64,000 nt of DNA from a bacterium (lineage in GTDB: Bacteria; Cyanobacteriota; Vampirovibrionia; Gastranaerophilales; UBA9971): contig JBAWVS010000001.1 of the NCBI GenBank assembly GCA_037147175.1, positions 1-64,000 of the forward strand, given 5' to 3'. A program made the position numbers and the translations under genes. The notes beneath the pieces are model-generated. The model searched no databases and was not told where the DNA came from. It saw only the letters and a list, made by a program, of their open reading frames with translations. Within the stretch, counting starts at the first letter, position 1, and the number at the start of each line of letters is the position of its first letter. Below are positions 819 to 57,955 of this stretch, in pieces.

Positions 819-1604
819 ATGAATTTAGATGATTTAAAAAACTTAAAACAGCTTATTGAAACAATTTCAATCTTAAGATCGCCGCAAGGGTGTCCATGGG
901 ATAGGGAGCAAACGCATAAATCCTTGAGAGAAAACCTTTTGCAGGAAACTTATGAAGCTCTTGATGCAATAGATAAAGAAAACGATGATAATTTAAAGGA
1001 AGAACTCGGAGATGTTTTGCTTCAGGTGGTACTTCATTCGCAAATAGCTTCTGAAGAGAATAAATATACTATAGAAGATGTGGCAAAAGGCATTACAGAT
1101 AAGTTAATAAGACGTCATCCGCACGTTTTTTCGGATATAAAAGTAAAAGACTCTGATGAAGTAATGGTTAACTGGGAAAAAATTAAGAGAAAAGAAAAAC
1201 CGGAGCGAAATTCCGCTCTTTCAGGTATTGCTGAAACAATGCCGGCTCTTATGGTTGCGCAGGAATTAAGTAAAAAAGCGGTAAAAACAGGTTTTGAGTG
1301 GCCTGATGAGTCGTCTCTATGGGATTGTTTCGAATCTGAAATTAAAGAGTTTAAAGATGAAATTGTCGAAAATAATCAAAAACTTATGGAAGAAGAATTT
1401 GGCGATATTTTATTTTCTCTTGTAAATGTTGCCCGCTGGCATAAAATTGATCCTGAAATTGCCCTTATTAACGCCAATAAAAAGTTTAAGGCAAGATTTC
1501 AGCTTATGGAAACACTGGCATCAAAGGATCTTGCCGAATACAATATTGATGAGCTTGAAGAGTTCTGGCAGAAAGCCAAAGAAGAGTTGAAAAATAAAAA
1601 ATGA
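819..1604 (+). CDS. mazG: Nucleoside triphosphate pyrophosphohydrolase MazG
   Basis: 261 aa, the usual length for two-domain MazG. It hydrolyses (d)NTPs to NMP and pyrophosphate, a house-cleaning role in the cytosol. The N-terminal domain shows RSPQGCPWDREQTHKSL, the metal-binding EExYE pattern (LLQETYEALDAI) and EELGDVLLQVVLHSQIA; HPHVF follows. The second MazG repeat has EEEFGDILFSLVNVARW near residue 190. Its stop overlaps the trmFO start by 4 bp, so the two are translationally coupled. There is no clear Shine-Dalgarno at the ATG. Confidence 0.93.
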   Translation: MNLDDLKNLKQLIETISILRSPQGCPWDREQTHKSLRENLLQETYEALDAIDKENDDNLKEELGDVLLQVVLHSQIASEENKYTIEDVAKGITDKLIRRHPHVFSDIKVKDSDEVMVNWEKIKRKEKPERNSALSGIAETMPALMVAQELSKKAVKTGFEWPDESSLWDCFESEIKEFKDEIVENNQKLMEEEFGDILFSLVNVARWHKIDPEIALINANKKFKARFQLMETLASKDLAEYNIDELEEFWQKAKEELKNKK

Positions 1605-2908
1605 AAGTAAAAATTATTGGCGGTGGATTAGCCGGATCAGAAGCAGCTTTGCAACTTGCAAAAAAGAATATTAATGTTGAATTATACGAAATGCGTCCTG
1701 AAAAAACAACAGGCGCACATCAAACAGATAAACTCGGAGAATTGGTTTGCTCTAACAGCCTTGGGTCAAAAGATTTAGGGGCGGCAAGCGGACTTTTGAA
1801 AGAAGAGTTAAGAATGCTCGGCTCTTTTCTCATAAAATTTGCCGATGAAAGCAGTGTACCTGCGGGAAATGCGCTTGCTGTCGACAGAGATATATTTTCG
1901 GAAAAAATTACTAACGCCATAAAATCAAATGATTATATAAAAGTTTTTAATGAAGAAATTACCGAAATTCCTTCGGATTGTCCAGTAATTATTGCCTCTG
2001 GCCCACTGACCTCAGATGGGTTGACGAAAGAAATAATTAACTTTACAGGTGCTGATAATTTGTATTTCTTTGATGCGATTGCTCCGATAATTGAGAAAGA
2101 TTCGGTGAATTTTGATAAGGCTTTCTGGGCAAGCCGCTATAATAAAGGCGAAGCTGCTTATATAAACTGTCCTATGAATCAAGCAGAGTACGAAAAATTT
2201 TATGAAATTATTACGACTTCTCCTAAAATTGAACTTAAATCCTTTGAAAAAGATGCAAAGTTCTTTGAATCTTGTATGCCGATAGAAATTATGGCTTCAA
2301 GAGGCAAAGATACTTTAAGATTTGGTCCTTTAAAACCTGTAGGTCTTATTGATGATAGAACAGGAGATAAAAATTTTGCTGTGGTTCAGTTAAGGCAGGA
2401 TAATAAAGCTGCAACTTTATATAATTTAGTCGGGTTTCAGACAAATTTAATATGGGGAGCCCAAAAAGAACTTATTCACAGTATTCCCGGACTTGAAAAT
2501 GCCGCTATTGTCAGATACGGCGTGATGCACAGAAATACTTTTATACACAGTCCTTCGGTGATTGATTCTACTTTGCAGTCAAAAAAAAGACTGGATTTGT
2601 TTTTTTCCGGGCAAATAACCGGTGTTGAAGGATATACAGAGTCTATTGCTACAGGACTTCTCTCAGGAATAAATATGAGCAGGTTTATAAACTCAGAATG
2701 CTTGTTAAAACTTGATTCAGTATCAATTTTAGGGGCTTTATGCTCTTATATAACCTGTCATGAACACAAAAATTTTCAGCCCATCAATAGTAACTGGGGA
2801 ATTTTAAGTCCTATGGAAATGGATAAGAAAACGAAAAAAGACAAGAAGCTTAAAAATAAGCTTCTTGCCGATAGATCTATAAATTTTATGAAGGATTTGG
2901 GATTTTAA
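1601..2908 (+). CDS. trmFO: Methylenetetrahydrofolate-tRNA-(uracil-5-)-methyltransferase TrmFO
   Basis: 435 aa, full length. A flavoprotein that makes 5-methyluridine at position 54 of tRNA using methylene-THF. It has an N-terminal FAD-binding GGGLAGSEAALQLA, the family block FWASRYNKGEAAYINCPM, the central SCMPIEIMASRGKDTLRFG and the C-terminal GQITGVEGYTESIATGL. It overlaps mazG by 4 bp and runs convergently into clpX with 32 bp between stops. An 11-bp perfect hairpin (2842-2867) lies inside the last 25 codons. Confidence 0.96.
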   Translation: MKVKIIGGGLAGSEAALQLAKKNINVELYEMRPEKTTGAHQTDKLGELVCSNSLGSKDLGAASGLLKEELRMLGSFLIKFADESSVPAGNALAVDRDIFSEKITNAIKSNDYIKVFNEEITEIPSDCPVIIASGPLTSDGLTKEIINFTGADNLYFFDAIAPIIEKDSVNFDKAFWASRYNKGEAAYINCPMNQAEYEKFYEIITTSPKIELKSFEKDAKFFESCMPIEIMASRGKDTLRFGPLKPVGLIDDRTGDKNFAVVQLRQDNKAATLYNLVGFQTNLIWGAQKELIHSIPGLENAAIVRYGVMHRNTFIHSPSVIDSTLQSKKRLDLFFSGQITGVEGYTESIATGLLSGINMSRFINSECLLKLDSVSILGALCSYITCHEHKNFQPINSNWGILSPMEMDKKTKKDKKLKNKLLADRSINFMKDLGF

Positions 2909-2940
2909 TTACAAGCTGTCCTGTTAAAATTCCCGCTTCG

Positions 2941-4281
2941 CTAAGCTATTTCTTCATCTATTTGTTCTGATTTCGCAGTTTTTCTTAGTTTTTTGACTTT
3001 ATGATTCTGAAGAGACTCTATAGCCGCACTTTTTTTGTTTTCAACCATTTCAGGTGTAACTTTAATCTCGCTGATATCATCTCTTGAAGGAACTTCATAC
3101 ATGATATCGAGCATAATCTCTTCAACTATGGATCTTAAAGCCCTTGCGCCTGTTTTTCTCTTAAGCGCTTCAACCGCAATAAGCCTTATAGACTCGCTTT
3201 CAAACTGAAGGTCTACATTATCCATTTTTAAAAGTTCCTGATATTGTTTAAGAATGGCATTTTTAGGCTCTGTAAGTATTTGAACCAGAGCTTTTTCGTC
3301 TAAAGGATCAAGAACTGCATAAACAGGAACTCTTCCGATAAACTCAGGAATTAAGCCGAATTTGATTAAATCATCGGGAACCATTTTTTTAAGCATTTTT
3401 GCTGCGGTAAGCTCTCTTTCATAGGCAGCTTTCGGAGTTGTGGCACCAAAACCTACAAGTTTACCTGTGCCGGCTCTTGCATCAACAATTTTTTCAAGCC
3501 CTACAAAAGCTCCGCCAACAATAAACAAAATATTACTTGTATCAATCTGAATAAATTCCTGATGAGGGTGTTTTCTTCCGCCTTGCGGAGGAACATTTGC
3601 AACAGTTCCCTCTATCATTTTCAAGAGAGCCTGTTGAACACCTTCACCGCTTACATCTCTTGTGATGCTGGGGTTTTCAGATTTTCTTGCAATTTTGTCA
3701 ATTTCGTCAATATAAATAATCCCTCTTTCGGCTTTTGCTGCATCGTAATCAGCACTTTGATAAAGCCTTAAAAGAATGTTTTCAACGTCATCGCCAACAT
3801 AACCTGCTTCTGTTAAAGTTGTGGCATCAGCAACAGCAAACGGAACATCAAGCATTTTAGCCAGAGTTTGGGCAAGAAGGGTTTTTCCGCTTCCTGTAGG
3901 TCCTACAAGCAAAATATTACTTTTTTGTATTTCTACTTCTTTATTTTTATTATCAGCAATAGATAAATTATGGTTTATTCTCTTATAATGATTATAAACG
4001 GCAACGGCGAGCTGTTTTTTCGCATCGTCCTGACCGATTATATGCTGATCAAGATATAATTTGATATCATAAGGTTTCGGAATTTCTGCCAGTTTTGGGG
4101 CTTCAGCGTTTTCTTCTTTTTCTTCACTGGAATCAAGAAATTCTTCATCAAGAATTTCATTACAGAGATCGACACATTCATCACATATATACACTTCCGG
4201 ACCGGCTATTAATTTTTTTACCTGATCCTGTGTCTTGCCGCAAAAAGAGCACTTTAAGCGCGCATCATCTCTTTTAGCCAT
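2941..4281 (-). CDS. clpX: ATP-dependent Clp protease ATP-binding subunit ClpX
   Basis: 446 aa AAA+ unfoldase that feeds substrates to ClpP. It has an N-terminal C4 zinc finger (Cys11, 14, 33, 36), Walker A GPTGSGKT, pore loop GYVG, Walker [10 protein letters not shown] and the sensor region [18 protein letters not shown]. The ClpP-docking loop reads VGF rather than the usual IGF, a conservative change. It is the last gene of tig-clpP-clpX, 28 bp after clpP. Confidence 0.97.
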
Positions 4282-4309
4282 AAATTAAGTTTCTCCTGCG
4301 TTAAAAAAA

Positions 4310-4918
4310 CTAGAGATTATCAGAAACTTCTTTCTTTTCAATCTTAGTTATTACTTTGTCAACCATTCCATATTCTAAAGCTTCTTCAGGGGTCATAATA
4401 TAATCCCTGTCAGTGTCTTTTTCGATTTTTTTGAAGCTTTGTCCTGTATGCTTAGCAAGAAGCTCATTAAGAGTACGTTTAATTCTTCCTATTTCAGCGG
4501 CCTGAATTTGAATATCTGTTGCCTGACCCTGCGCACCGCCTAAAGGCTGGTGAATAAGGATTCTTGAATGAGGAAGTGCCATACGTTTTCCCGGAGTTCC
4601 TGCTGCCAGAAGGAAAGCGCCCATGCTTGCAGCCTGACCAAGACAAATTGTATTTACATCGGCTCTTATGTGCTGCATTGTGTCAAAAATTGCTAAACCT
4701 GCTGTTACACTGCCACCGGGGCTGTTAATATAAAGCATAATGTCTTTTTCCGGATTTTCCGAATCAAGAAGCAACAGCTGTGCAACTATGAGGTTGGCTA
4801 TCATATCATCAATAGGTGTTCCGAGAAAAATTATTCTTTCTCTTAAAAGTCTTGAGAAAATATCAAAAGATCTTTCTCCTCTACTTGATTGTTCAATTAC
4901 TACAGGCACAAATCCCAT
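4310..4918 (-). CDS. clpP: ATP-dependent Clp protease proteolytic subunit ClpP
   Basis: 202 aa, full length serine protease that assembles as a tetradecamer. The triad is visible: Ser98 in [11 protein letters not shown], His123 in ILIHQPLGG and Asp172 in [11 protein letters not shown]. The N-terminal [20 protein letters not shown] is characteristic. It lies between tig and clpX in the same orientation with short gaps of 36 and 28 bp, so co-transcription is likely. Partners in this window are ClpX and ClpC. Confidence 0.97.
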
Positions 4919-4954
4919 TGAAATTACCTTTCTATAAACAAACTAATATTTACA

Positions 4955-6268
4955 TTAAACTTTTGTTAAAGTGTCTTCAATATATTTTACTTCATTATTC
5001 TCAACAAGATAATTAATTATTTTTTGACTCATTATTTGTTGGGATAATCCTTGCGCAATAGCCGGACTTTGGGCCATTTGCTCATAAATAGCTTTTTCAT
5101 CGGAGTTATAAACTCTTGCAAGCTCTTTTACTTTTTCTGCAAAATCTTCTTCAGTCAGCTGAAGATTTTCTGTTTTTGCCACGGCACTAAGAACCAAACT
5201 GGTTCTTACACGTTTGGCAGCTTCTTCTCTAAGGCTGTTCCACGTGTTTTCATGTCCTTGTTGTTCAAGAACCTGTTCCCATGAAATTCCCTGACTTTTG
5301 AATTTTGCCTGAACTTCTTCAAGAAGTGTTTTTGCTTCTCTATTAACCATAGAATCAGGAATATCAACGTTAGCAGAATCAACTACTTTTTCAAGAACAG
5401 CTTTTTCTGTCCTGATTTTATTTTCATTTTCTCTTGATTTTTCTAGATATTTTACCATATCTTGCTTAAGGTCTTCCAGTGTCTGGAAAGGACCGACTTT
5501 TTGAGCAAGCTCATCATTTATTTCAGGGGTGATTTTCTTTTTAATTTCATTGATTTTTATTGTAAACTCAGCGGGTTTGCCGGCTAAAGTTTTGTCATGG
5601 TAGCCTTCAGGGAAAGTTACATTGATTTTAAACTCTTCACCCCTGTTTTTTCCAACGACTTGTTCGGCAAATCCCGGAACGAAATGGCTGTTTGAAAGGT
5701 CAAGCTGCTGATTTTTTCCTGCTCCGCCTTTTATAGCTTCACCGTTAACTGTTCCGTTGAAATCAATTATGACTATATCGCTGGTTTCTGTGGGTCTGTC
5801 CACTATCGGCTCCAGAGTAGCAAATTTTTCGGAAAGAAGTTTTAATTCTTTTTCGATTACGTCATCGGAATGTTTAAATTCAGGTACTTCAAATACCTGA
5901 CCTTTGTAGTTTACGAGATTAACTTCTGGTTTAACTTCCAGTCTTGCATTAATTGAAACGGGTTTGCCCAGTTCAAAGTTGTAATTTTCAATAACCGGTT
6001 CTGTTGTCAAGTCAAGTTGATGTTCACTTATTACATCGGCAAATATATTCGGCAAAAGAGCATCAAGTACTTTTTGCTGTATTCTTCCGACTCCAACATG
6101 TTTTTCTATCATTGAGCGTGGAGCTTTGCCTTTTCTGAATCCGGGGATATTAACATTTTCGCCTATTTTGCGGCATGCTTTATTGTATTCCTGAGCTGCA
6201 ACATCGGCACTAACTTCGATGTTAAGCTTGAATAAGTTATTTTCCTGCTTTTCTAAATTTACTTTCAT
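4955..6268 (-). CDS. tig: Trigger factor, ribosome-associated chaperone
   Basis: 437 aa. The ribosome-docking signature GFRKGKAPRSMIEKHVG lies near residue 43. A central FKBP-type peptidyl-prolyl isomerase domain (about 150-245) is followed by the helical C-terminal chaperone arms. It is the first gene of tig-clpP-clpX, an order shared with Cyanobacteria and many other bacteria. It folds nascent chains at the ribosome exit. Confidence 0.96.
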   Translation of the reverse strand: MKVNLEKQENNLFKLNIEVSADVAAQEYNKACRKIGENVNIPGFRKGKAPRSMIEKHVGVGRIQQKVLDALLPNIFADVISEHQLDLTTEPVIENYNFELGKPVSINARLEVKPEVNLVNYKGQVFEVPEFKHSDDVIEKELKLLSEKFATLEPIVDRPTETSDIVIIDFNGTVNGEAIKGGAGKNQQLDLSNSHFVPGFAEQVVGKNRGEEFKINVTFPEGYHDKTLAGKPAEFTIKINEIKKKITPEINDELAQKVGPFQTLEDLKQDMVKYLEKSRENENKIRTEKAVLEKVVDSANVDIPDSMVNREAKTLLEEVQAKFKSQGISWEQVLEQQGHENTWNSLREEAAKRVRTSLVLSAVAKTENLQLTEEDFAEKVKELARVYNSDEKAIYEQMAQSPAIAQGLSQQIMSQKIINYLVENNEVKYIEDTLTKV

Positions 6269-17796: not shown

Positions 17797-17870
<74 letters not shown>

Positions 17871-18776: not shown

Positions 18777-21020
18777 ATGCATAAAATATTTAAATCCTTA
18801 TTAGTTGTCATTTCATTTTTAACAGTAATAACATTAAGTGGTTGTGTAAATGTTGAATCACAAATAACAATAAACAAAGATGGAAGTGCTGATGTAGAAT
18901 ACAAACCAATGTTTAATCAGGCAATGATGGGATTTGCTGGGAATGCTTTATATGAAGTAAAAACAAATGCGGAAAAAAGTGGTTATAGTGTTTCAAGTCT
19001 CAATGAATATGGCATGGTAGGTTTAAAAGCAAAGAAACATATTGAAAATTTAAATGAAACTGATATTGATGGGTTGCCTAATTGTTTTATCAAAGAAAAC
19101 AACAAATTTATAACAGTTAATAAAGGTTTTTTTACTGATAAATATGATATTGATATAAAAGTTGACCTTTCTAGCAAAAATAATGATTCTAACGAAAATA
19201 ATCCTTATTTTAATGAGATTGAAAATTCTGCAACTCAATCAGCAAGTTTTAGTTTTATATTGAATTTACCCGTAAAATCTGATAGCAATAATGCGAGTAA
19301 CGTTACAAATCAAGGAAAAAATCTTAAATGGAATTTAATATATGGCAATATTAATGAAATTCAAGCAGAATTTAAAATAATAAAACCAATAAATATAGTA
19401 ATTGCAATTATTTTAGGTGTATTAGTTCTTTGTTTAATAATATTTCTTGTTCTGAAAAGAAATAAATTAATAGAAATTTTAAATAAAATTGATTTAATAA
19501 ATGTTTTACGGTCTGTTATCTCAAATAATATTAATTTAATTAAAAAAACAGTTAAAGTTGTCTTATTTATATTACTGTTATTAGCTTTAGGCTATTTAAG
19601 TTATATTGGTTATGATAAATACGTTGAAAATATAAATAAAGTTGAACTTTACCCTATTTTAGAAAATGGTAAATGGGGTTATATTAATAAATCAGGAAAA
19701 ATTGTTATAAAACCACAATTTGCCACAGCAAGGGGATTTGCAAACGGTTTAGCAAGGGTAAATATTGGGGGTCAAACAAAAAATTATGAAAAATATATAT
19801 TAAAATGTTTTTATGAAATAAGACCAAAATTTAAGATGAAATCGTTAAATGAGGTTGTTAATATTTGTGTAGAAGAAACTTCAAAAAATGATGTTACAAG
19901 AATAAATCGGATTTTAAACACGTTTTTGTACGGCGGAAAATGGGCATATATAGACAAAAAAGGAAACTTTTTAATTAAACCAATCTATCAAGAAGCTTTG
20001 GCTTTTGGAAATCCTTATTTTAATAAAGACAATGAATTAGCTCCTGTAAAAACAACTAACAAATGGGGATATATAAATAAACAAGGTAAGTTTATTATAG
20101 AACCGCAGTTTGAAAAAGCTGAAGGCTTTTCAGAGGATTTAGGATTAGTTAAATTTGAAAATAAATATGGATTTATAGATAAAAAAGGGGATTTTATTAT
20201 AAATCCCCAATTTGACAAAGCTTTATCTTTTTCAGAGGGTTTTGCCCCTATAAAAATAGGTAATAAATGGGGGTATATAAATAAACAAGGAACGGTTATT
20301 ATAAAGCCTAAATTTGATGAAGTTTCTCCATTCTTTGAAGAATTAGCAAGTGTAAAAGAATCAGGCAAATATTTTTATATTGATAAAGACGGAAAACAAC
20401 TCTTTAAAGATAAATATAAAAGTGCTTTTAGATTTTCTGAAGGATTGGCGGGTGTAAACTTAAATAATAAATGGGGATTTATAAATAAACAAGGTAAATC
20501 CGTTATAGAACCTCAATTTGATGAAGTAGGATATTTTTCAGAGGGTTTTGCCCCTATAAAAATAGGTAATAAATGGGGGTATATAAATAAAACAGGGAAA
20601 ATTGTAATTAAATTGAAATTTATTCAAATAGATAATTTTTATAATGGTTTAGCTTTAATCGTAATGAAGGATAAAAAGTTTGCATATATAGACAAAACAG
20701 GAAAAATTATTTATCAAACTCCAGAAAAAGAAAAAATTAAAATTGTCAAAAAAGAAACTTCAAAAACAATAACTATTAATAAAAATCAAGACGAAAAACA
20801 GTTATCTAAAGAAACTAATAGTAAAGTATCTAAATCTTCAAAGAATACTGCAATAATCAGCAATAAAATAAATAAAAAGCCTGTTAAAAAAAATGAATCT
20901 CTTATTAAAGTCAGCAAAAAGACTAATTATATTAATGTCAATAATATTAAATCTAATAAAACCAATAATCATGATTCAAAAAATACTGTAAATACAAACG
21001 ATTTATTATTAGGGGAATAA
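18777..21020 (+). CDS. Lipoprotein with LppM-like domain, two membrane helices and WG repeats
   Basis: 747 aa from the ATG at 18777 (GTGAGAG upstream); a TTG at 18768 is also possible. A signal peptide with lipobox LSGC (Cys near 24) leads into VNVESQITINKDGSADVEYK, an LppM-like domain. Two hydrophobic helices follow near residues 206-228 and 260-282. Then come about nine WG-type repeats of the form KWGYINKxGKxVIKPQFD up to about residue 640, and a Lys/Asn/Ser-rich tail. WG repeats usually form beta-propeller-like binding surfaces. It is the first gene of an apparent four-gene cargo operon. Confidence 0.75.
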   Translation: MHKIFKSLLVVISFLTVITLSGCVNVESQITINKDGSADVEYKPMFNQAMMGFAGNALYEVKTNAEKSGYSVSSLNEYGMVGLKAKKHIENLNETDIDGLPNCFIKENNKFITVNKGFFTDKYDIDIKVDLSSKNNDSNENNPYFNEIENSATQSASFSFILNLPVKSDSNNASNVTNQGKNLKWNLIYGNINEIQAEFKIIKPINIVIAIILGVLVLCLIIFLVLKRNKLIEILNKIDLINVLRSVISNNINLIKKTVKVVLFILLLLALGYLSYIGYDKYVENINKVELYPILENGKWGYINKSGKIVIKPQFATARGFANGLARVNIGGQTKNYEKYILKCFYEIRPKFKMKSLNEVVNICVEETSKNDVTRINRILNTFLYGGKWAYIDKKGNFLIKPIYQEALAFGNPYFNKDNELAPVKTTNKWGYINKQGKFIIEPQFEKAEGFSEDLGLVKFENKYGFIDKKGDFIINPQFDKALSFSEGFAPIKIGNKWGYINKQGTVIIKPKFDEVSPFFEELASVKESGKYFYIDKDGKQLFKDKYKSAFRFSEGLAGVNLNNKWGFINKQGKSVIEPQFDEVGYFSEGFAPIKIGNKWGYINKTGKIVIKLKFIQIDNFYNGLALIVMKDKKFAYIDKTGKIIYQTPEKEKIKIVKKETSKTITINKNQDEKQLSKETNSKVSKSSKNTAIISNKINKKPVKKNESLIKVSKKTNYINVNNIKSNKTNNHDSKNTVNTNDLLLGE

Positions 21021-28073: not shown

Positions 28074-28116
28074 CTTGGGGTGGTAGGGGTCGCAGGTTCA
28101 AATCCTGTCGTTCCGA
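28074..28116 (+). repeat. Internal att: junction of elements 1 and 2
   Basis: A perfect 43-bp copy of the tRNA-Pro 3' end (CTTGGGG..GTTCCGA). It lacks the 5' half of the tRNA, so it is not a gene. It serves as attR of element 1 and attL of element 2. Confidence 0.9.
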
Positions 28117-28281: not shown

Positions 28282-29337
28282 TTATTTTACAGCACATAGA
28301 TGACTATTCTGTCCTGTTAAAAGAGTATCCAATGCCTGAATTGCTTGAACTTTTCTTTCAGGAACAGGATGTGAATATCGCATTGTCGTTGCAATATCAG
28401 CGTGTCCAAGAATTTCTTGTACTACAGCAAGGTCAATTCCTGCAAATACCATTTTTGTAGCGGCAGAGTGTCTTAAACAATGAGGAGTTAAATTTTCAAT
28501 ATTTGCTCTTTTGCAAACACGCTTAAAACCCTTTTTAATGTTCTCATATCTATTATTTGTGAAAGGATTTGTAAAGACATAATCTGACTTTTTATTGTTA
28601 TAAAGTTCAATTAATTCATTATAAACTGTGTTGCTCATAGGGATACGTCTCATTTTTCCGCTCTTAGTCTTGTATAAAGTAATAGACTTCTGCTTAAAGT
28701 CAATATTTTCAGACCATTTTAACGATAAACACTCACCTTTTCTCATAGCAGTGTGAAGAAGAACGATAATTATAGATCTTAAATAAACATCTTCCTTAAT
28801 GCAGCTATTTATAAGAGCTTCTTCCTCTTCAGGGAATAAAAACCTTTCAACTTTATTATCCGCTCTCAAAGGTTTTACTTTCTTTGCAGAACAGGGATTA
28901 TCATTTGTCCAGCCATTATCTATAGCTATATTAAACATTTTTGAGATAATAGAAACGTTTCTATTAATTGTAGCATTGGCAATGCCTTTATTTTTTCTAT
29001 AAAGCCTATATTTTTCAATCATAAAAGGAGTTATATCTTTTAATTTCTTTCCTGAAAAGAACTTCTTGATTCCTTCAACAGTATATCTATCATTATGCCA
29101 ACCGATACGGTTAATTTCTCCGTATTTAACAAACACAGTAATTAAATTATCAAAAAACATTTCGCCTTTGCCTTCAGCAAGGTCATATTTGCCTTGTAAG
29201 ATTTGTGCTTTTAAAATAGTTTGTGCTTTTTCAGCATCTTTCATACAAGTCGCTTCTGGAATACTTTTATGATAGGTCTTTCCACGTATCATAAATTTAT
29301 AGAACCAAGTTCCTGCTTTGCTTTGATACACACTCAT
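28282..29337 (-). CDS. int: Tyrosine integrase of element 2
   Basis: 351 aa. Catalytic residues are Arg199 (HTAMRKGECLSLKW), His286 and Arg289 (PHCLRHSAATKM), His312 (LGHADIATTMRY) and Tyr321. The N-terminus (YQSKAGTWFYKFMIRGKTY) is an arm-binding domain of the DUF4102/P4-like or Tn916-like type. It differs clearly from the element-1 integrase although both use the same tRNA site. It reads toward the junction att. Confidence 0.93.
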   Translation of the reverse strand: MSVYQSKAGTWFYKFMIRGKTYHKSIPEATCMKDAEKAQTILKAQILQGKYDLAEGKGEMFFDNLITVFVKYGEINRIGWHNDRYTVEGIKKFFSGKKLKDITPFMIEKYRLYRKNKGIANATINRNVSIISKMFNIAIDNGWTNDNPCSAKKVKPLRADNKVERFLFPEEEEALINSCIKEDVYLRSIIIVLLHTAMRKGECLSLKWSENIDFKQKSITLYKTKSGKMRRIPMSNTVYNELIELYNNKKSDYVFTNPFTNNRYENIKKGFKRVCKRANIENLTPHCLRHSAATKMVFAGIDLAVVQEILGHADIATTMRYSHPVPERKVQAIQALDTLLTGQNSHLCAVK

Positions 29338-39675: not shown

Positions 39676-41010
39676 TTATCCCCTTGGCGGTCGGTAGTTT
39701 CTTGCATTCCAAAAACTTGCAGAAGCTGGTGTTTTTCCTGCATTTTGTGGGACTTTGCCTACTCCAAAGAAGAAGTTGGTATTTGGTACTTGCGGTGTGG
39801 CTACAAGTGTTGAAAACATATATGCACCTTCAGGAACAACCGTTAAATTGCGAAGATTGGTCATGTCTTCATGCTGCCGTTGGCTGAGAGTTTTATCAAC
39901 TTCTGCAAATCGAGAAGCATAAAGACATGATATCTGTCCATCCAGTTCGCCATAACGTTTTATTAAGGAATACACTTTTTCTTTATTTATTTTTTGCCCT
40001 TTCATTGCTTTACGAAGTTCTGTTGCTACAGAAATACGAATATTTGCAATTTCCTTCATTGCATTGCGTTGTTCACTAATAATGCTTGTAATGCGTTGTC
40101 TTTGTGTAGAATTTAGAATGTTTAAAAAATCCTGACCACTATCCCCTGTGAGGGACGTGCTAATAAAATAATTCGGATTGTGCATGGCAGGATAATCTTT
40201 CATATAAAAACCGCCAAAATATGTGCCGTGACGTTCGGGACAGAAATACGCATCAGCGTTTATACCACCTTTATACCAGGAAAAAAGTTCACTTGCATAA
40301 GTCATTACCGCTACAAATTGCATATTGGTTAAACCTCTTTTAAGGTTTTCGTCTTCAGGTACATCTGACCACGTTGCCGAATTATCAAATTTCATTTTTG
40401 CAAGATATGACTTTTGTTTCGGTGTAAATGAGGAAATAATTTTTCCTACAACCTCTGCACGACGAAAGGTCAACTGTGCATCCAGTGTGTAAAGATTTCC
40501 GGTATAGGTTTTAACAGCATAAGAGTTTAACTCTGTTGCACCTGTTGGGATATTACCTTCTAAATTTCTACGAAAAGCGGTCATTAACGGAAAACGGTTA
40601 TATGCAAAATTAACATAAACAGGTTCTTGTTCTTTTGCAAGAGCGATCAATTTCGCTTTTTGCTCATTTGTTAAAATTTTCAATACATTATTTGCTGCTT
40701 TTGAAAGAAAAGTAGTGTTATGCCCATAACCTGCCGTATCAACATCACGCATATATTGAAAACCAAAAAAATCAGCAACTTTACCCGGTGGCATAAATGT
40801 GTCTGCACCTGCACTGCCGGTAATAAAGGCAAGCCCGTTGAAAGCAATTGTGCTAAGTTGAGCCCTGTCAGACATCGCCTGTTCCATAGAGTAGCCTCCG
40901 GATTGTTTTGGAGGTCGGTTATTTTCACCATATGCTATATTGTCACAGCAGAACATGAAAATATTTGATGAGATTAATAATGCCAATAATCTTATAAAAA
41001 TTTTGTTCAA
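39676..41010 (-). CDS. Exported LTxxQ-type (Spy/CpxP-like) protein with internal duplication
   Basis: 444 aa with a signal peptide (FIRLLALLISSNIFMFCC..AYG). Four motifs of the LTxxQ kind appear: LTNEQKAKL, FTPKQKSYL, LNSTQRQRI and LSQRQHEDM. Two halves are related: ADTFMPPGKVADFFGFQYMRD..ILTNEQ and ADAYFCPERHGTYFGGFYMKD..ILNSTQ. LTxxQ proteins are periplasmic chaperones or metal/stress sensors. It neighbours the kinase/regulator module and is probably part of that envelope response. Confidence 0.6.
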   Translation of the reverse strand: MNKIFIRLLALLISSNIFMFCCDNIAYGENNRPPKQSGGYSMEQAMSDRAQLSTIAFNGLAFITGSAGADTFMPPGKVADFFGFQYMRDVDTAGYGHNTTFLSKAANNVLKILTNEQKAKLIALAKEQEPVYVNFAYNRFPLMTAFRRNLEGNIPTGATELNSYAVKTYTGNLYTLDAQLTFRRAEVVGKIISSFTPKQKSYLAKMKFDNSATWSDVPEDENLKRGLTNMQFVAVMTYASELFSWYKGGINADAYFCPERHGTYFGGFYMKDYPAMHNPNYFISTSLTGDSGQDFLNILNSTQRQRITSIISEQRNAMKEIANIRISVATELRKAMKGQKINKEKVYSLIKRYGELDGQISCLYASRFAEVDKTLSQRQHEDMTNLRNLTVVPEGAYMFSTLVATPQVPNTNFFFGVGKVPQNAGKTPASASFWNARNYRPPRG

Positions 41011-41069
41011 AAAACTCTCCTTTCGAGAAATAGCTTAAATTTTAACTTAGAGAAAAGCTATTTGAAAGC

Positions 41070-41540
41070 CTATTTGAGAAGAAAAAATTTATTCATTTCT
41101 GCAACCTGATTTTGTCCGGCATATGGGTCTATGGATTGTGCATTTTGAACACTTACAGAAAGTCCGACTGCTTGGCATCTTGATGCAATTGAAGACGCTT
41201 CGTTAGGTTGCATAGTTGCTATTATAGCTGATATATTGGCAGCATCACCTGCTGCTGAACCCGAACCTTTAATACCAAGCTCGTCCATAATACTTGACCA
41301 TGGAGCTCCGCCTTTATGTCCCTGTTGTGTTTGAGATGCCATTAGTGTAGATGCTTTATTAGCTTGATCTGTGTTGTTTGCAGAGTCAGTATTGCCAGAT
41401 TTGGCTTGTTGAATTGCAGCCAAATCACCTTCTCTTGAGCCGGTTGGTTTTAATCCGAGAGATTGAAGCTGTATAAGAATTTGTGGATCTATAGGCGGTT
41501 TTTGATTTATATACGGATTAAATTGAATTCCTGATATCAT
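41070..41540 (-). CDS. Repeat protein with ELGIKGSG domain, short member
   Basis: 156 aa, no signal peptide. The N-terminal unit PPIDPQILIQLQSLGLKPTGSREGD is followed by a Thr/Ser/Gln-rich linker. The main unit is GAPWSSIMDELGIKGSGSAA followed by a GDA..SRCQAVGL helix pair, nearly identical to units in the 41,638 product. The family is not recognised. The unit pattern is a helix, a turn LGhxxSG, Asp and a second helix. Confidence 0.6.
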   Translation of the reverse strand: MISGIQFNPYINQKPPIDPQILIQLQSLGLKPTGSREGDLAAIQQAKSGNTDSANNTDQANKASTLMASQTQQGHKGGAPWSSIMDELGIKGSGSAAGDAANISAIIATMQPNEASSIASRCQAVGLSVSVQNAQSIDPYAGQNQVAEMNKFFLLK

Positions 41541-41570
41541 CTTACAGTCCTCATAATAATTTTTTCATAC

Positions 41571-41613
41571 AAAAAGGGAGAAAATTCATAGAATTTACTT
41601 CTCCCCTTTTTTT
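41571..41613 (-). terminator. Terminator of the 41,638 gene
   Basis: AAAAAGGGAGAA pairs with TTCTCCCCTTTTT (one bulged C). Located 25 bp beyond the stop, it ends the transcript of the minus-strand gene. Confidence 0.7.
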
Positions 41614-41637
41614 GTATTTGTTTGAATATAGTTAATT

Positions 41638-42345
41638 TTATGTTGGTGTACTTATAGTAAGTCCTAAAGCTTGACATCTTGAGGTAATTGAAGCTGCTTC
41701 ATCAGGCTGCATAGTTGCAATCAAAGCTGATATATTAGTAGCGTCTCCTTCTGCTGAACCTGAACCTTTAATGCCAAGTTCATCCATAATGCTTGACCAA
41801 GGTGCTCCGCCGCCTTTAGGTTTATCTCCTTGATGTGCTTTTTGAATATTTGCTACATCAGTAGCTTTATTTCCTGAAGATTGAAGACCTAATTCAGCAA
41901 GTTTAGCTAAAAGATTTTTACCTATTTCCGGTTTACTCTGAGATTCTCCATTTGATTGAGGAGCATTTAGAGAAAGCCCTGCTGCTTGACAGTTTGCTAT
42001 TATTGCAGCAGCTTCTTCAGGCGATTTTTTTTCAAGAATGGCTAATATGTTTGAAGCATCACCCGCAGAAGTACCTGAACCCTTGATGCCAAGCTCGTCC
42101 ATAATGTTTGACCAAGCTGCTCCACCTTGTTTAGGCTGAGAACTTTGTGCGTTTAATGTTGAAGCAAAAATACTTTGATTATTATTGGTTTGGATTGAAG
42201 TTTGAGTGGCTTGGGCTGCCTTAATAGCCGCCAAGTCTGCTTGCATTGATCCTTGAGGTTGTAATCCAAGAGCAAGTAGCTGTGCCAAAATTTGTGGGTT
42301 AATCGGCGGTCTGCCGGATGATGATCCTACTGATTCGATGCTCAT
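41638..42345 (-). CDS. Repeat protein with two ELGIKGSG domains
   Basis: 235 aa, no signal peptide. The order is: short unit PPINPQILAQLLALGLQPQGS; long unit WSNIMDELGIKGSGTSAGDA..NCQAAGLSL; short unit KPEIGKNLLAKLAELGLQSSG; long unit WSSIMDELGIKGSGSAEGDA..SRCQALGL. It looks like a duplication of the 41,070 gene. A TTCTTAAG-type operator lies 80 bp upstream. Function unknown; regulated with the kinase module by inference. Confidence 0.65.
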   Translation of the reverse strand: MSIESVGSSSGRPPINPQILAQLLALGLQPQGSMQADLAAIKAAQATQTSIQTNNNQSIFASTLNAQSSQPKQGGAAWSNIMDELGIKGSGTSAGDASNILAILEKKSPEEAAAIIANCQAAGLSLNAPQSNGESQSKPEIGKNLLAKLAELGLQSSGNKATDVANIQKAHQGDKPKGGGAPWSSIMDELGIKGSGSAEGDATNISALIATMQPDEAASITSRCQALGLTISTPT

Positions 42346-42424
42346 AATTCTTCTCCTAATTAAATAAAACTAATAGTGATTTAATATATTTTAAGTATAT
42401 AAGATTTAAATCTTTTAATTATCT

Positions 42425-42460
42425 GGCTTAAGAATAGTTTTATTTTAGTTCTGAAGGACT
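42425..42460 (-). promoter_or_regulatory. Two-component operator, site before the 41,638 gene
   Basis: On the minus strand AGTCCTTCAGAACTAAAATA then AACTATTCTTAAGCC: two half-sites 24 bp apart. AACTATTCTTAAG is shared exactly with the site before the kinase gene, and a TATACT -10-like hexamer follows 27 bp later. Confidence 0.6.
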
Positions 42461-42498
42461 AATTAAATTCAACTGTGAATTTTCAACATTCATTTATT

Positions 42499-42531
42499 AA
42501 AATGACGAAACAGAATATGTTTCGCCATTTT
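42499..42531 (-). terminator. Terminator of the 42,550 gene
   Basis: AAAATGACGAAACA pairs with TGTTTCGCCATTTT (one mismatch, 5-nt loop), 18 bp beyond the stop of the minus-strand gene. Confidence 0.7.
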
Positions 42532-42549
42532 AAACACTTGTTTTTCAAT

Positions 42550-43251
42550 TTATTGTTCGGAGCCGGAACTATTGTTATTGTTTTTTTTAGCCTGCATAGC
42601 TGCTCTGATATTTTGTATATCTGTAGCTTTATCACCTGATGATTGAAGACCTAATTCAGTTAGTTTTCTTTGAAGATTTTGACCGATTACAGGTTTTCCT
42701 CCATTTGTATTTGATCCGCTTTGCGATTGAGAACCTTGATTGCTTTGTTGTCTACTATTTTGTCCACCTTGTGGTCTGAAATTTTGTTGATTATTTTGTC
42801 CCATTTGCCCTTGAGGCGGTGGTCCTTGTTGTTCGCCATTATTTTGTCTCATTTTGTTTTGCGGTGGTGGACCTTGTGGTCTCATTTGACCCTGTTGTCC
42901 CATTTGACCTTGAGGAGGTGGACCTTGTTGCCCGCCGTTTGGTCCGCCTTGTGGTCTGTAATTTTGTTGATTATTTTGATTATTTTGTCCTTGTCTAAAA
43001 TCTTGCTTCTGTTCTTGTTGAAATTCTTGTCTGTCTTGTTTTTGATCTTGGTTGAATTCTTGTCTGTTTTGCTTTTGCTCTTGTTGAAATTCTTGACGAT
43101 TATTTTGATTATTTTGTCTTTGTTCTTGCCATTGCGGTTGTCCTCCTCCTTGAGGGTTTCGTCCTTGTGCTTCGGCTCTTTGACAGTTCATAGATGCAAA
43201 TGAAATTAATGCAACAGATAAAGCTAAGGTTGCGATTACAATTTTTTTCAT
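42550..43251 (-). CDS. Exported Gln/Pro/Gly-rich protein with LGLQSSG unit
   Basis: 233 aa. Signal peptide KKIVIATLALSVALISFASMN. Residues 30-185 are low complexity: QEQKQNRQEF-type heptads, then GPPPQGQMGQ-type repeats. The C-terminal 45 residues, KPVIGQNLQRKLTELGLQSSGDKATDIQNIR, match the short unit of the 41,638 product. It may be a secreted matrix-like or intrinsically disordered protein. The opposite-strand Leu-rich ORF is only a shadow of these repeats. Confidence 0.65.
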   Translation of the reverse strand: MKKIVIATLALSVALISFASMNCQRAEAQGRNPQGGGQPQWQEQRQNNQNNRQEFQQEQKQNRQEFNQDQKQDRQEFQQEQKQDFRQGQNNQNNQQNYRPQGGPNGGQQGPPPQGQMGQQGQMRPQGPPPQNKMRQNNGEQQGPPPQGQMGQNNQQNFRPQGGQNSRQQSNQGSQSQSGSNTNGGKPVIGQNLQRKLTELGLQSSGDKATDIQNIRAAMQAKKNNNNSSGSEQ

Positions 43252-43565
43252 TTCTTAATCTCCTGATAAACTAAAAAACTATTTTATGTCGTTTTTCATA
43301 TTAAGTATTTTATTTGTATTTTTATAATACACATGTTTTTAAAAAATTTTAAGTGTCTGAAAACAAAAAACGTTATTCCGAAATACAGAAAAAGACTTGT
43401 TCGCTTATCACACATATATATTGACAATTTACTTTTCAACTTTACATTTTTAACATTCCGAAATTAATTTCTTAAAAACAGAAATATTGTGTATAAATAT
43501 AAACTACAACCCTTTAGCCATCAGGCTTAAGAACTGGTTTGTTTTAGTTCTTAAGAACAGGTATT
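43252..43565. other. Intergenic region with long leader of the 42,550 gene
   Basis: 314 bp. Apart from the operator at its right end and a TATATT/TATACA -10-like sequence near 43,490-43,500, no gene is seen. If the promoter is that one, the transcript has a 5' leader of about 230 nt. Confidence 0.4.
43524..43560 (-). promoter_or_regulatory. Two-component operator, site before the 42,550 gene
   Basis: On the minus strand CTGTTCTTAAGAACTAAAAC then CAGTTCTTAAGCC: two half-sites whose TTAA cores are 24 bp apart, each containing TTCTTAAG. It aligns base for base over most of its length with the site at 42,425. Confidence 0.65.
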
Positions 43566-44228
43566 TTATAAAATTCTTTCTTTTAAAGCTAAGAGTGCAG
43601 CTTGTGTTCTGTCATCAACGGATAGCTTTTGAATAACATTGCTTACATGATATTTGACTGTGTAAACAGATAATGAAAGCTGTTCAGATATATCTTTATT
43701 ACTTAATCCTTCTGCAATAAGCCTCAAAACGTCTTTTTCTCTTGGAGTTAATCCAAAATCAGTATAAGTTTCTTGATTTTCTTTTTGTATTTGATTACTA
43801 ATTGTTTTTGACTGAAGATATTCCATAATATATGCAGCAACAGAAGAATCAATCCACATAGTTCCTTCATTAACAGTTTTTATTATATTTATAAGCTCAT
43901 CAATTTTAATATTTTTCATACAATATGCATCAGCACCTGAATTAAAGGCAGACAATACATTTTCTTTTTCGGTATAAGACGTAAACATAATAATTTTGAT
44001 ATTCGGATTATATTGTTTAATTTCTTTTGTGGCATCAATTCCGTTCAAAACAGGCATTGATATATCCATTAAAATTAAATCAGGATTTAATTTTATCGCT
44101 AAATCTATAATTTTCTTACCATTTTCAGCTTCTGCCAAAACTTCAATTTCCGAATATTTTTTTAATCCGAAAGCTATTCTTTGTCTTGTAAGTTCATGAT
44201 CTTCAGCGATAAGTATTTTTATTTTCAT
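43566..44228 (-). CDS. NarL/LuxR-family response regulator
   Basis: 220 aa. The receiver domain has the acidic pair AEDH, phospho-acceptor Asp55 (LILMDISMP), Thr in MFTSYT and Lys in CMKNIK. The C-terminal LuxR-type HTH reads LTPREKDVLRLIAEGLSNKDISEQLSLSVYTVKYHVSNVIQKL. It starts 6 bp after the kinase gene ends, so both are co-transcribed. It probably binds the TTCTTAAGAA sites, including the one before its own operon. Confidence 0.92.
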   Translation of the reverse strand: MKIKILIAEDHELTRQRIAFGLKKYSEIEVLAEAENGKKIIDLAIKLNPDLILMDISMPVLNGIDATKEIKQYNPNIKIIMFTSYTEKENVLSAFNSGADAYCMKNIKIDELINIIKTVNEGTMWIDSSVAAYIMEYLQSKTISNQIQKENQETYTDFGLTPREKDVLRLIAEGLSNKDISEQLSLSVYTVKYHVSNVIQKLSVDDRTQAALLALKERIL

Positions 44229-44234
44229 AATTAT

Positions 44235-45890
44235 TTATATCCAATTCTCTTCAAATTTAGTAGGCAATTTTATTATAAATCTTGTATATTTATCTTTTTC
44301 GCTTTGAACGGAGATTTCTCCGTTATGAAGCCGGATTAACTCTTTACATACAAATAATCCCAGACCCGAACCTATTTTTCTTTCATAACTTTTCCCTGTA
44401 AAGTACCGATCAAATATATGTTCAATGTCTTCCTGCAAAATACCGTTCCCGTTATCTTCAATATTAATATTAATGAATTTTTCATAAGAATCCACAGATA
44501 TCAAAACTTTGCCTTCATCTGAGATATTTTCAATTGAATTTGATACAAGGTTTAAAAATATTCTGTTTAAAGAATTTTGATCAGCAACTATAAAGGGAAA
44601 ATCATTCGGGATTTGATTTATTAAACATATATTTTTCTCTTGAGCTAAAATTTGTAGTTGCTCAAAGCAATTTTCGACCACATCATAAAGATTTATCTTT
44701 GTCATAGTGAGTTTTAAATCTTTTAAGTCAAAGCGGTATGCTTCAAGAATAAGGTTTACCATTCTCAAAATATGGCTGTTATTTTTTTCAAGATTTTTCG
44801 CCAGTTCAAAACTGTCTTTTAATCCTAATTCTTCAAATTCTTTTGAAATTAATTCAAGCGTTTTTTCCTGAGCTATCAAAGGAGTTCTAAGATCATGGGT
44901 CAGGTTTGATATAAAACTGTTTCTTATTTCTTCTTTCTCTTTTAATCCTGTTACGACTTTATTAAAACTTTCAAACGCATGTTGTAATTCTTTTTGGGCG
45001 ATATTTGTATTTAATTGGGACAATAATTCACCCTGTTGTAATTTATTTAAAGCATTAGACAGGGTTAACAAAGGTTTTATAAAGTTATTATTGAGATATA
45101 AGCCAATAAATAAACTAAATAATGCGCCTGTAAATAAAATTATCATTCCGAGTTTTTCAGGTGCAATCCAAGGTCCGGGGGGCGGATTATGACGTTTTAA
45201 CAATATTGAAGCAATTGTTTTACCTCTATAATCAGTTAATTTTATTACATCATGCGGAATATTTTTATTTTTTGGAATTCCCGTAAGTTCATTTTCCGGT
45301 AATCTTTTTTTATTTTCTTTTAATAGAAATGGCGGTGAAAACGGATCTTTTACTGTTTCCAAAAGATTATTTTTATTTATTTTATCTCCTGAATACAACT
45401 CCATATCGAAAGGACCTGCCGGAAATAATTCTTTAATATCAACTTTATAAACAATCTTAATTCCGCTGATATCAACTTTTTTAAAAGGGACAATATAAAC
45501 AGCTGACAATTCCGGTTTTTTATTGTCCTGATTTTCCGTTAAATCATAATATGCAGTTATTCTTTCATATTGATTTAAGTTTTTGACTACAAAGTCCTTA
45601 TTAGCAGCTATCCAACTTACCTGTTTTACTTCTAAAATATTTTTTAATTGTTTTAAAGAAATATCTTTTATCGGAGTATTTTCTATAACTCGTAAAATAT
45701 TATTCTCTCTTACTTTTAAATAGTTTTTACTTGTAAAATTCAACTGCTTAAAGCCAATTGAAAAAATACGCTGTTCTTTATCTTTCTTTAAATGTTTCTC
45801 TTGATATTGATGCCAGGAAAACATTAAAAACAAAGGCAAAATAGCAGAAATTAAAAATAAAATAATGAAATATTTTGAAAACTTAAGCAT
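44235..45890 (-). CDS. Membrane sensor histidine kinase
   Basis: 551 aa. Membrane helices lie near residues 7-25 and 245-267 with an extracytoplasmic sensor of about 220 residues between them. HAMP follows, then HisKA with FISNLTHDLRTPL (His near 330), N-box NRIFLNLVSNSIENI, G1 DNGNGI and G2 GSGLGLFVCKEL. First gene of the kinase-regulator operon. The sensor domain is not recognised and includes a Pro-rich NPPPGPW near the second helix. Confidence 0.92.
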   Translation of the reverse strand: MLKFSKYFIILFLISAILPLFLMFSWHQYQEKHLKKDKEQRIFSIGFKQLNFTSKNYLKVRENNILRVIENTPIKDISLKQLKNILEVKQVSWIAANKDFVVKNLNQYERITAYYDLTENQDNKKPELSAVYIVPFKKVDISGIKIVYKVDIKELFPAGPFDMELYSGDKINKNNLLETVKDPFSPPFLLKENKKRLPENELTGIPKNKNIPHDVIKLTDYRGKTIASILLKRHNPPPGPWIAPEKLGMIILFTGALFSLFIGLYLNNNFIKPLLTLSNALNKLQQGELLSQLNTNIAQKELQHAFESFNKVVTGLKEKEEIRNSFISNLTHDLRTPLIAQEKTLELISKEFEELGLKDSFELAKNLEKNNSHILRMVNLILEAYRFDLKDLKLTMTKINLYDVVENCFEQLQILAQEKNICLINQIPNDFPFIVADQNSLNRIFLNLVSNSIENISDEGKVLISVDSYEKFININIEDNGNGILQEDIEHIFDRYFTGKSYERKIGSGLGLFVCKELIRLHNGEISVQSEKDKYTRFIIKLPTKFEENWI

Positions 45891-45956
45891 TTATATTTTC
45901 CTGCAAAACCAGCTATTATATAATAATTAGAATACCATTTAATTAGTGTTTACTGA

Positions 45957-45975
45957 TTAGTTCTTAAGAATAGTT
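45957..45975 (-). promoter_or_regulatory. Two-component operator, site before the kinase gene
   Basis: AACTATTCTTAAGAACTAA on the minus strand, 67 bp before the kinase start, with a TATTCT sequence 28 bp downstream and TATAAT further on. It shares 13 exact bases with the site at 42,425, which suggests autoregulation. Confidence 0.6.
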
Positions 45976-46001: not shown

Positions 46002-46316
46002 GACACAGGAAATTTATGTCGTTCCCAGATAGCACAAGGTTTATTGCTTCATTATTATGAAGATAAATATGAAGTTTTTAGTGCAGGAACAAAACCATCT
46101 GTTGTCAATAAAAATGCAATAAAAGTGATGAAAGAAATCGGCATTGATATTTCAGGACAAAAATCTAAGCATGTTAATGAATTTATAAATCAGACTTTTG
46201 ACATAATAATAACGGTTTGTGATAATGCTAAAGAAGCTTGTCCTGTTTTTCTAGGCAAGGTTTTTAGAGAAGTACGAAATCAGATTAAAGATAAAATAAC
46301 TGATTATTTCAACTAA
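46002..46316 (+). pseudogene. arsC: Decayed arsC (thioredoxin-type arsenate reductase)
   Basis: In frame from 46002: TGNLCRSQIAQGLLLHYYED, then FSAGTKPSVVNKNAIKVMKE and IIITVCDNAKEACPVF. This is the LMW-phosphatase fold of ArsC with the P-loop Cys (CRS) and the Cys82/89 region. A stop lies just before it, so the first beta-strand and start codon are gone. After CPVF the sequence jumps to GKVFREVRNQIKDK, missing the HWxxxDPA region of about 25 residues. It is not expected to be functional. Confidence 0.7.
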
Positions 46317-57913: not shown

Positions 57914-57955
57914 TTGGGGTGGTAGGGGTCGCAGGTTCAAATCCTGTCGTTCCGA
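57914..57955 (+). repeat. attR: distal copy of the tRNA-Pro 3' end
   Basis: 42 bp identical to 17,829-17,870, followed by TTCTTTTTT, which also follows the tRNA. It is the right boundary of the 40-kb insertion; core chromosome resumes with the permease gene a few bases later. Confidence 0.9.

Follow-up and report, generated by a model that had tools for sequence, protein, structure and literature searches.

The 64-kb stretch analysed here (below, the window; contig JBAWVS010000001.1 of assembly GCA_037147175.1, to which all coordinates refer unless another locus is named) belongs to the 2.66-Mb genome of an uncultured, non-photosynthetic relative of the cyanobacteria from the order Gastranaerophilales. 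Within a mobile element it carries a two-component system of a sensor histidine kinase and a response regulator, followed by genes for a Q-rich protein, two repeat proteins and a further protein with a signal peptide (Table 1; genes without a name are called by their first coordinate). A sequence recurring at three sites among these genes, here A, B and C, had been spotted by eye in a first-pass annotation, and the comparison of orthologous loci indicates that it very probably serves as a genuine control site for the sensor and the genes next to it.

The kinase matched the Pfam families HATPase_c (E 1.4e-24) and HisKA (E 6.1e-6; 26.6 bits against a cut-off of 26.9), and no HisKA_3 match appeared in Pfam at E values up to 1. 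Its sensor was modelled as a Cache-like extracytoplasmic domain of about 200 residues (pLDDT 79.8), for which the top fold matches, with middling values, were LuxQ (Z 9.4), KinD (Z 8.8) and other Cache/PDC sensors. The regulator is of the NarL/FixJ type, with PF00072 (E 5.5e-26) and PF00196 (E 1.2e-21) both above cut-off; its closest solved proteins are VraR (E 8e-39) and next NarL, and it stays below the NCBIfam NarL equivalog cut-off (147 bits vs. 250). In the window as in the relatives' loci the operon holds kinase and regulator only, and a LiaF (VraT) gene is absent from it. With its HisKA kinase, its Cache/PDC-like sensor and no LiaF gene, the system is therefore no LiaFSR system, although it would be LiaR/NarL-like at the DNA level.

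The three sites are indeed present on the minus strand at the positions first proposed. The earlier description took TTCTTAAGAA as the shared core, with 13 exact bases common to two of the sites; a core is shared, and B and C are identical over 14 bases (TTAGTTCTTAAGAA), but the operator itself appears as a 16-bp dyad of 7-2-7 form with the half-site T-R-R-Y-Y-C-Y, of which TTCTTAAG is the core in the window copy. Likewise, the 24-bp pairing holds at A and B, its units being tandem dyads rather than half-sites. Site A lies about 76 bp upstream of the 41638 gene and site B about 270 bp upstream of the 42550 gene, and the tandem arrangement of B together with its GCCTGA flank is kept in a related genome (G018).

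Table 1. Genes, predicted operators and other features of the module and its element (window coordinates; last row, coordinates of the named loci).
Feature	Position	Strand	Remarks
Sensor histidine kinase	44235..45890	-	Transmembrane segment (TM), Cache-like extracytoplasmic domain, TM, HAMP-like linker, HisKA, HATPase_c
NarL/FixJ response regulator	43566..44228	-	Response_reg + GerE; 6 bp behind kinase gene
Q-rich protein, presumed target	42550..43251	-	Signal peptide; single C-terminal LxxLGLxSSGxxxxD repeat
Repeat protein, presumed target	41638..42345	-	Two-helix LxxLGL/I..GS..D motifs; without signal peptide
Second repeat protein	41070..41540	-	Without signal peptide; without own operator
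Signal-peptide protein	39676..41010	-	Weak LTxxQ (CpxP/Spy-like) similarity; without own operator
Operator C, single 16-bp dyad	45958..45973	-	CTATTCTTAAGAACTA; end 67 bp upstream of kinase ATG
Operator B, upstream dyad	43545..43560	-	CTGTTCTTAAGAACTA; 5 bp past regulator stop
Operator B, downstream imperfect dyad	43521..43536	-	CAGTTCTTAAGCCTGA; starts 24 bp from start of upstream dyad
Operator A, upstream dyad	42446..42461	-	TAGTCCTTCAGAACTA; rank 1 in window with G018-trained matrix
Operator A, downstream imperfect dyad	42422..42437	-	CTATTCTTAAGCCAGA; 24 bp from upstream dyad
Candidate -10 after C, TATTCT	45929..45934	-	23 nt downstream of operator; TGG in front
Weak candidate -10 after B, TATATT	43496..43501	-	19 nt downstream of operator; poor match
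Candidate -10 after A, TATACT	42394..42399	-	22 nt downstream of operator
Attachment repeat, left element end	28075..28116	+	42 bp, tRNA-Pro 3' end
Attachment repeat, right element end	57914..57955	+	Identical 42 bp
Tyrosine integrase of module-carrying element	28282..29337	-	Phage_integrase E 3.8e-38; adjoins left repeat
Candidate small RNA loci, genus g28	L086 7570-7716, L088 4895-5033, L092 8064-8210		11 further loci

Among 383 genomes of the order, 22 carry full-length orthologs of the kinase, with 37–52% identity to the window kinase (a scan of genome contigs with the latter returned 13 loci, of which seven are close kin; named records among the close relatives are Candidatus Gastranaerophilales, Candidatus Adamsella and uncultured Melainabacteria). 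Across 24 loci, among them the two of the present genome and one from a distant member of the class (G433), a 16-bp TRRYYCY dyad stands upstream of the kinase gene in 21, spanning several families; its end mostly lies 41–67 bp from the ATG, the distance being 96 bp in L071 and 193 bp in G015 and G020. When matrices were trained with the tested site left out, the training set still holding its near relatives, the kinase-proximal site came first in 14 of 19 loci and among the top three in all 19. Other matches scoring at least 14 are mostly intergenic and precede genes for small or EF-hand-like proteins or follow straight behind the regulator gene, the genic exception being L094 1824. Regulators of this class are expected to act as dimers on a short inverted repeat, and phylogenetic footprinting offers the conserved 7-2-7 dyad as the predicted binding site. 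The dyads before the kinase genes support the earlier proposal of an autoregulated two-component module; its shared operator and the neighbouring genes as targets are supported as well.

How often such sequences occur by chance depends strongly on what is counted. The octamer TTCTTAAG is not enriched (8 copies in the window vs. 7.2 expected from shuffles), and GTTCTTAAGAA occurs five times in 2.66 Mb on both strands, three of them within the three sites and the remaining two, on contigs C51 and C81, inside open frames. The genome-wide frequency of the motif, which the first-pass annotation had named as a possible refutation, would therefore be an ambiguous test, with the octamer at chance and the extended dyad far from it; octamer or core counts by themselves prove nothing, and the comparison of orthologs is the working test. 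A matrix built from four G018 sites only placed A, B and C as the top three among 7,932 intergenic window positions, clear of the fourth (11.2 vs. 9.0), and three such matches were reached in 1 of 100 dinucleotide shuffles of the intergenic sequence; across the entire 64 kb, genic positions included, the ranks were 1, 4 and 7. A tandem pattern of dyads 24 bp apart (up to three mismatches), run against 60 genomes, matched A, B and the orthologous G018 position and no other place, with one control match; the pattern was derived from these very sites, so that their recovery is by construction and the informative part is that nothing else was found. As an independent check, sliding the 46-bp G018 tandem stretch along the window gave A as the best position (34/46) and B as the second (30), the next reaching 27. 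It is hence scarcely credible that the palindromes are mere chance repeats in an AT-rich genome: the chance-level octamer and the loose matches, genome-wide no commoner than controls, would fit such a view, but the dyad is conserved at orthologous kinases, the blind ranking put the window sites on top and the tandem is rare, all of which contradicts it.

Two patterns were tried genome-wide and rejected, the loose TNNTTCTNNNGAACTA with one mismatch, which was useless for finding a regulon (121 matches vs. 219 in controls), and the strict TRRYTCYNNRGARYYA, which the diverged window sites fail and whose counts are near control in many relatives. The strict pattern has three matches in the 2.66-Mb genome, and the sole intergenic one precedes the kinase of a second system. 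The genome's set of sites appears small and local.

A -10-like hexamer had been claimed after each site, which stands for C (TATTCT at 23 nt) and A (TATACT at 22 nt), but at B only a weak TATATT is seen, at 19 nt. TATACT at 22 nt also follows the G018 tandem site and the site of a G018 EF-hand-like gene, many kinase promoters of the genus g28 carry TATTAT or TATGAT at 23 nt, and among relatives' kinase promoters the spacing from dyad to -10 is 22–24 nt at many, a reading made partly by eye. Good -35 hexamers are not recognisable at these promoters, and an A-tract lies upstream of many sites. If the -10 reading is right, the promoter-adjacent dyad would be centred near -43 and the upstream dyad near -67; for comparison, NarL activates ogt from -44.5, -67.5 and -77.5 (PMC7419079). 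Since the dyad would lie just upstream of the -35 region, the regulator probably activates its own operon. The same operator and regulator could also serve repression, steric or by feedback, as LiaR of Streptococcus mutans represses at hrcA (PMC4447274) and a site beside the -35 region can block RNA polymerase; we regard this as unlikely, because the 22–24 nt to the -10 fit the NarL activating position near -44.5 and unrecognisable -35 hexamers are what activator-dependent promoters are expected to show.

Site B calls for a separate remark, as its palindrome could mainly be an RNA hairpin ending the kinase/regulator transcript: CTTAAGAAC can pair with GTTCTTAAG across a 12-nt loop just past the regulator stop. 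No T-run follows, however, a terminator scan does not report B, and the orthologous tandem site of G018 retains the dyads, all of which makes a hairpin role very improbable.

The second kinase/regulator pair of the genome lies on contig C11 and has the site TAACTCTAGAGAGCTA. At position 4 of the half-site, T stands throughout (16 of 16 half-sites) in those systems (window, G018, G433) whose regulator has Ser at the residue aligned to NarL K192, and C in 61 of 68 half-sites of the others, which have Lys or Arg there; G433 contributes a single weak site (TAGTGCCCAAGAACCA, score 11.3). This suggests, among sequences that are related, that the position-4 base tracks the recognition-helix residue, an argument drawn from the alignment and a structure paper on RcsB, with K188/V189/K192 as the presumed NarL contacts. 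Control of the window genes by a second regulator, e.g., the C11 paralog, would be conceivable in that both pairs share one genome and their sites follow a similar general plan, but the consistent difference at position 4 and the differing contact-helix residues render such cross-talk improbable and suggest that the two copies are insulated in specificity.

We therefore consider it quite likely that a two-component system borne by the tRNA-Pro element drives its own operon and local targets through 7-2-7 dyad operators. The kinase would sense an extracytoplasmic ligand through its Cache-like domain and phosphorylate the NarL/LiaR-type regulator, whose dimer would bind the 16-bp TRRYYCY dyad; one such dyad near -43 would serve the kinase/regulator operon, and dyad pairs 24 bp apart (about -43 and -67) would drive the genes of the Q-rich exported protein and the 41638 repeat protein. 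The 41070 and 39676 genes could at most be co-transcribed with the latter. T instead of C at position 4, together with the changes in the recognition helix, would keep the element system and the C11 system apart.

Several observations weigh against this explanation. The kinase-proximal dyad is weak in G152 (L067/L093) and G433 (L084), and in G137 (L081/L085) none was seen before the kinase, with two good sites standing by neighbouring genes. The -10 positions were read partly by eye, automatic choice of the best hexamer scatters from 13 to 39 nt, and an automatic sigma-70 promoter scan of the region yields no more than shuffles; B has a weak -10 and lies 270 bp from its presumed gene. A matrix of the other orthologs, mostly with C-type sites, ranks A second and B and C only 40th and 43rd, because the window copy has diverged. 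The fit between base and helix residue depends on three Ser-type regulators that are related, so that the Fisher value obtained for it cannot be taken as a true probability. The tree puts the window pair on a long branch close to G018 and to the C11/G001 group, a position that is not firm.

Turning to the presumed targets, exported partners were expected for the module; judged by eye, the 39676 and 42550 proteins do have signal peptides, but the 41070 and 41638 repeat proteins do not. Neither the repeat proteins nor the small target proteins of the relatives matched a Pfam or NCBIfam family, and the 39676 protein remains under the PF07813 gathering score (E 0.0024, 19 bits vs. 24.3; CpxP model, E 0.021). 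The 41070 protein has relatives in G018, G017, G011 and G001, and its structure model is poor (pLDDT 62.6), too weak for a structure search. Relatives of the window repeat proteins are encoded next to the system in G018 and next to a remote system in G011, but they also occur without the system. In relatives, the small proteins encoded downstream of the sites have the motif L..LGIPddvIsqG..AIe.YA...gItLP in common; strong matches (E < 1e-20) to this family occur in 13 of 22 genomes with the system vs. 1 of 361 without, a co-occurrence favoured by the model having been built from operator-linked proteins, and 16 other genomes have weak matches. The window repeat proteins are of a different type from these LGIP proteins, to which they are possibly analogous. 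At L039 6619-7272 and L042 7038-7673, in the genome's second copy and in G018, EF-hand-like proteins without signal peptide have a dyad 91 and 214 bp upstream, respectively. In L048 (G011; 1477-4977) a distantly related kinase/regulator pair adjoins a REP1-like gene, with fliM/fliY-like flagellar switch genes further on.

Behind the regulator gene in 14 loci of the genus g28, the site is followed not by an open frame but by a TATAAT hexamer and a predicted transcript some 110 nt long, which ends in a conserved hairpin with an invariant CCCTG loop and two compensated pairs; its sequence is seen to be conserved, while that it is transcribed and functional is an inference. The RNA model R1 hit 15 genomes of g28 and, weakly, one further genome out of the 383; neither the window nor the non-g28 loci gave a convincing match. 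LhrC is a UCCC-containing small RNA of Listeria that envelope stress induces via LisRK (PMC4132741); the g28 candidate resembles it in its CCCTG loop behind a module operator, but lies outside this window, and no Rfam family fits in the five loci scanned. A broader proposal can be made only tentatively, at somewhat less than even confidence: an order-wide module may have an almost wholly local regulon, made up of its own operon, of a family of small two-helix "LGIP"/"LGL" repeat proteins and, within a single genus, of a C-rich small RNA, and the mobile private copy may have shifted regulator and operators jointly in specificity, with no cross-talk to the host's second copy.

The location inside a mobile element was borne out: direct repeats of the tRNA-Pro 3' end flank the element on either side, one of them beside a tyrosine integrase, as expected of an integrative element at a tRNA gene. 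Three exact 42-bp copies are present (17829-17870, 28075-28116, 57914-57955), and two integrative elements lie in tandem at tRNA-Pro, each with its own tyrosine integrase, the smaller one between the tRNA gene and position 28075; an Rfam scan of the window returned two tRNAs only. It is the larger element that carries the module as cargo, alongside ArdC-like, methylase, RND efflux, ArsR, MerR and Fic genes. A frame for a low-molecular-weight phosphatase (arsenate reductase-like; 46044-46316) begins at position 28 of the model and probably misses its N-terminus, and in the 18768-21020 gene, which resembles a WG-repeat lipoprotein, five repeats with 102-bp spacing lie at 20025-20621.

Among known systems, NarX/NarL shares with the present one a Response_reg + GerE regulator, a 16-bp 7-2-7 dyad and a site near -44 with a second one upstream, but the NarL half-site is TACYYMT, here it is TRRYYCY, and nitrate-related genes are not found nearby. 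The regulator is kin to VraR, and LiaR of S. mutans and CesR recognise a 16-bp inverted repeat with an adjoining A-tract (CesR box TCAGHCTnnAGDCTGA; PMC4447274); the sites described here are of nearly equal form and often A-tract-flanked, as in the LiaFSR/VraTSR box. Unlike LiaFSR/VraTSR, which have HisKA_3 kinases with short intramembrane sensors, the present system combines a HisKA kinase with a large Cache-like sensor, lacks a LiaF gene and would act on lineage-specific repeat proteins. As in CpxA/CpxR with CpxP/Spy, the cluster holds a signal-peptide protein with weak LTxxQ similarity, but this similarity is below the Pfam cut-off and the regulator is of the NarL rather than the OmpR type. 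Among the titles and abstracts that library searches on this lineage and two-component regulation brought up, none described such a module.

If the proposed regulation is true, the Gastranaerophilales would gain a defined operator, regulator and target set, and small proteins without an accepted family would gain a regulatory context. The g28 small-RNA candidate would moreover be a regulated RNA from a largely uncultured lineage. In this context, the element and C11 systems would offer a natural paralogous pair in which to study how regulator and operator specificity diverge after transfer.

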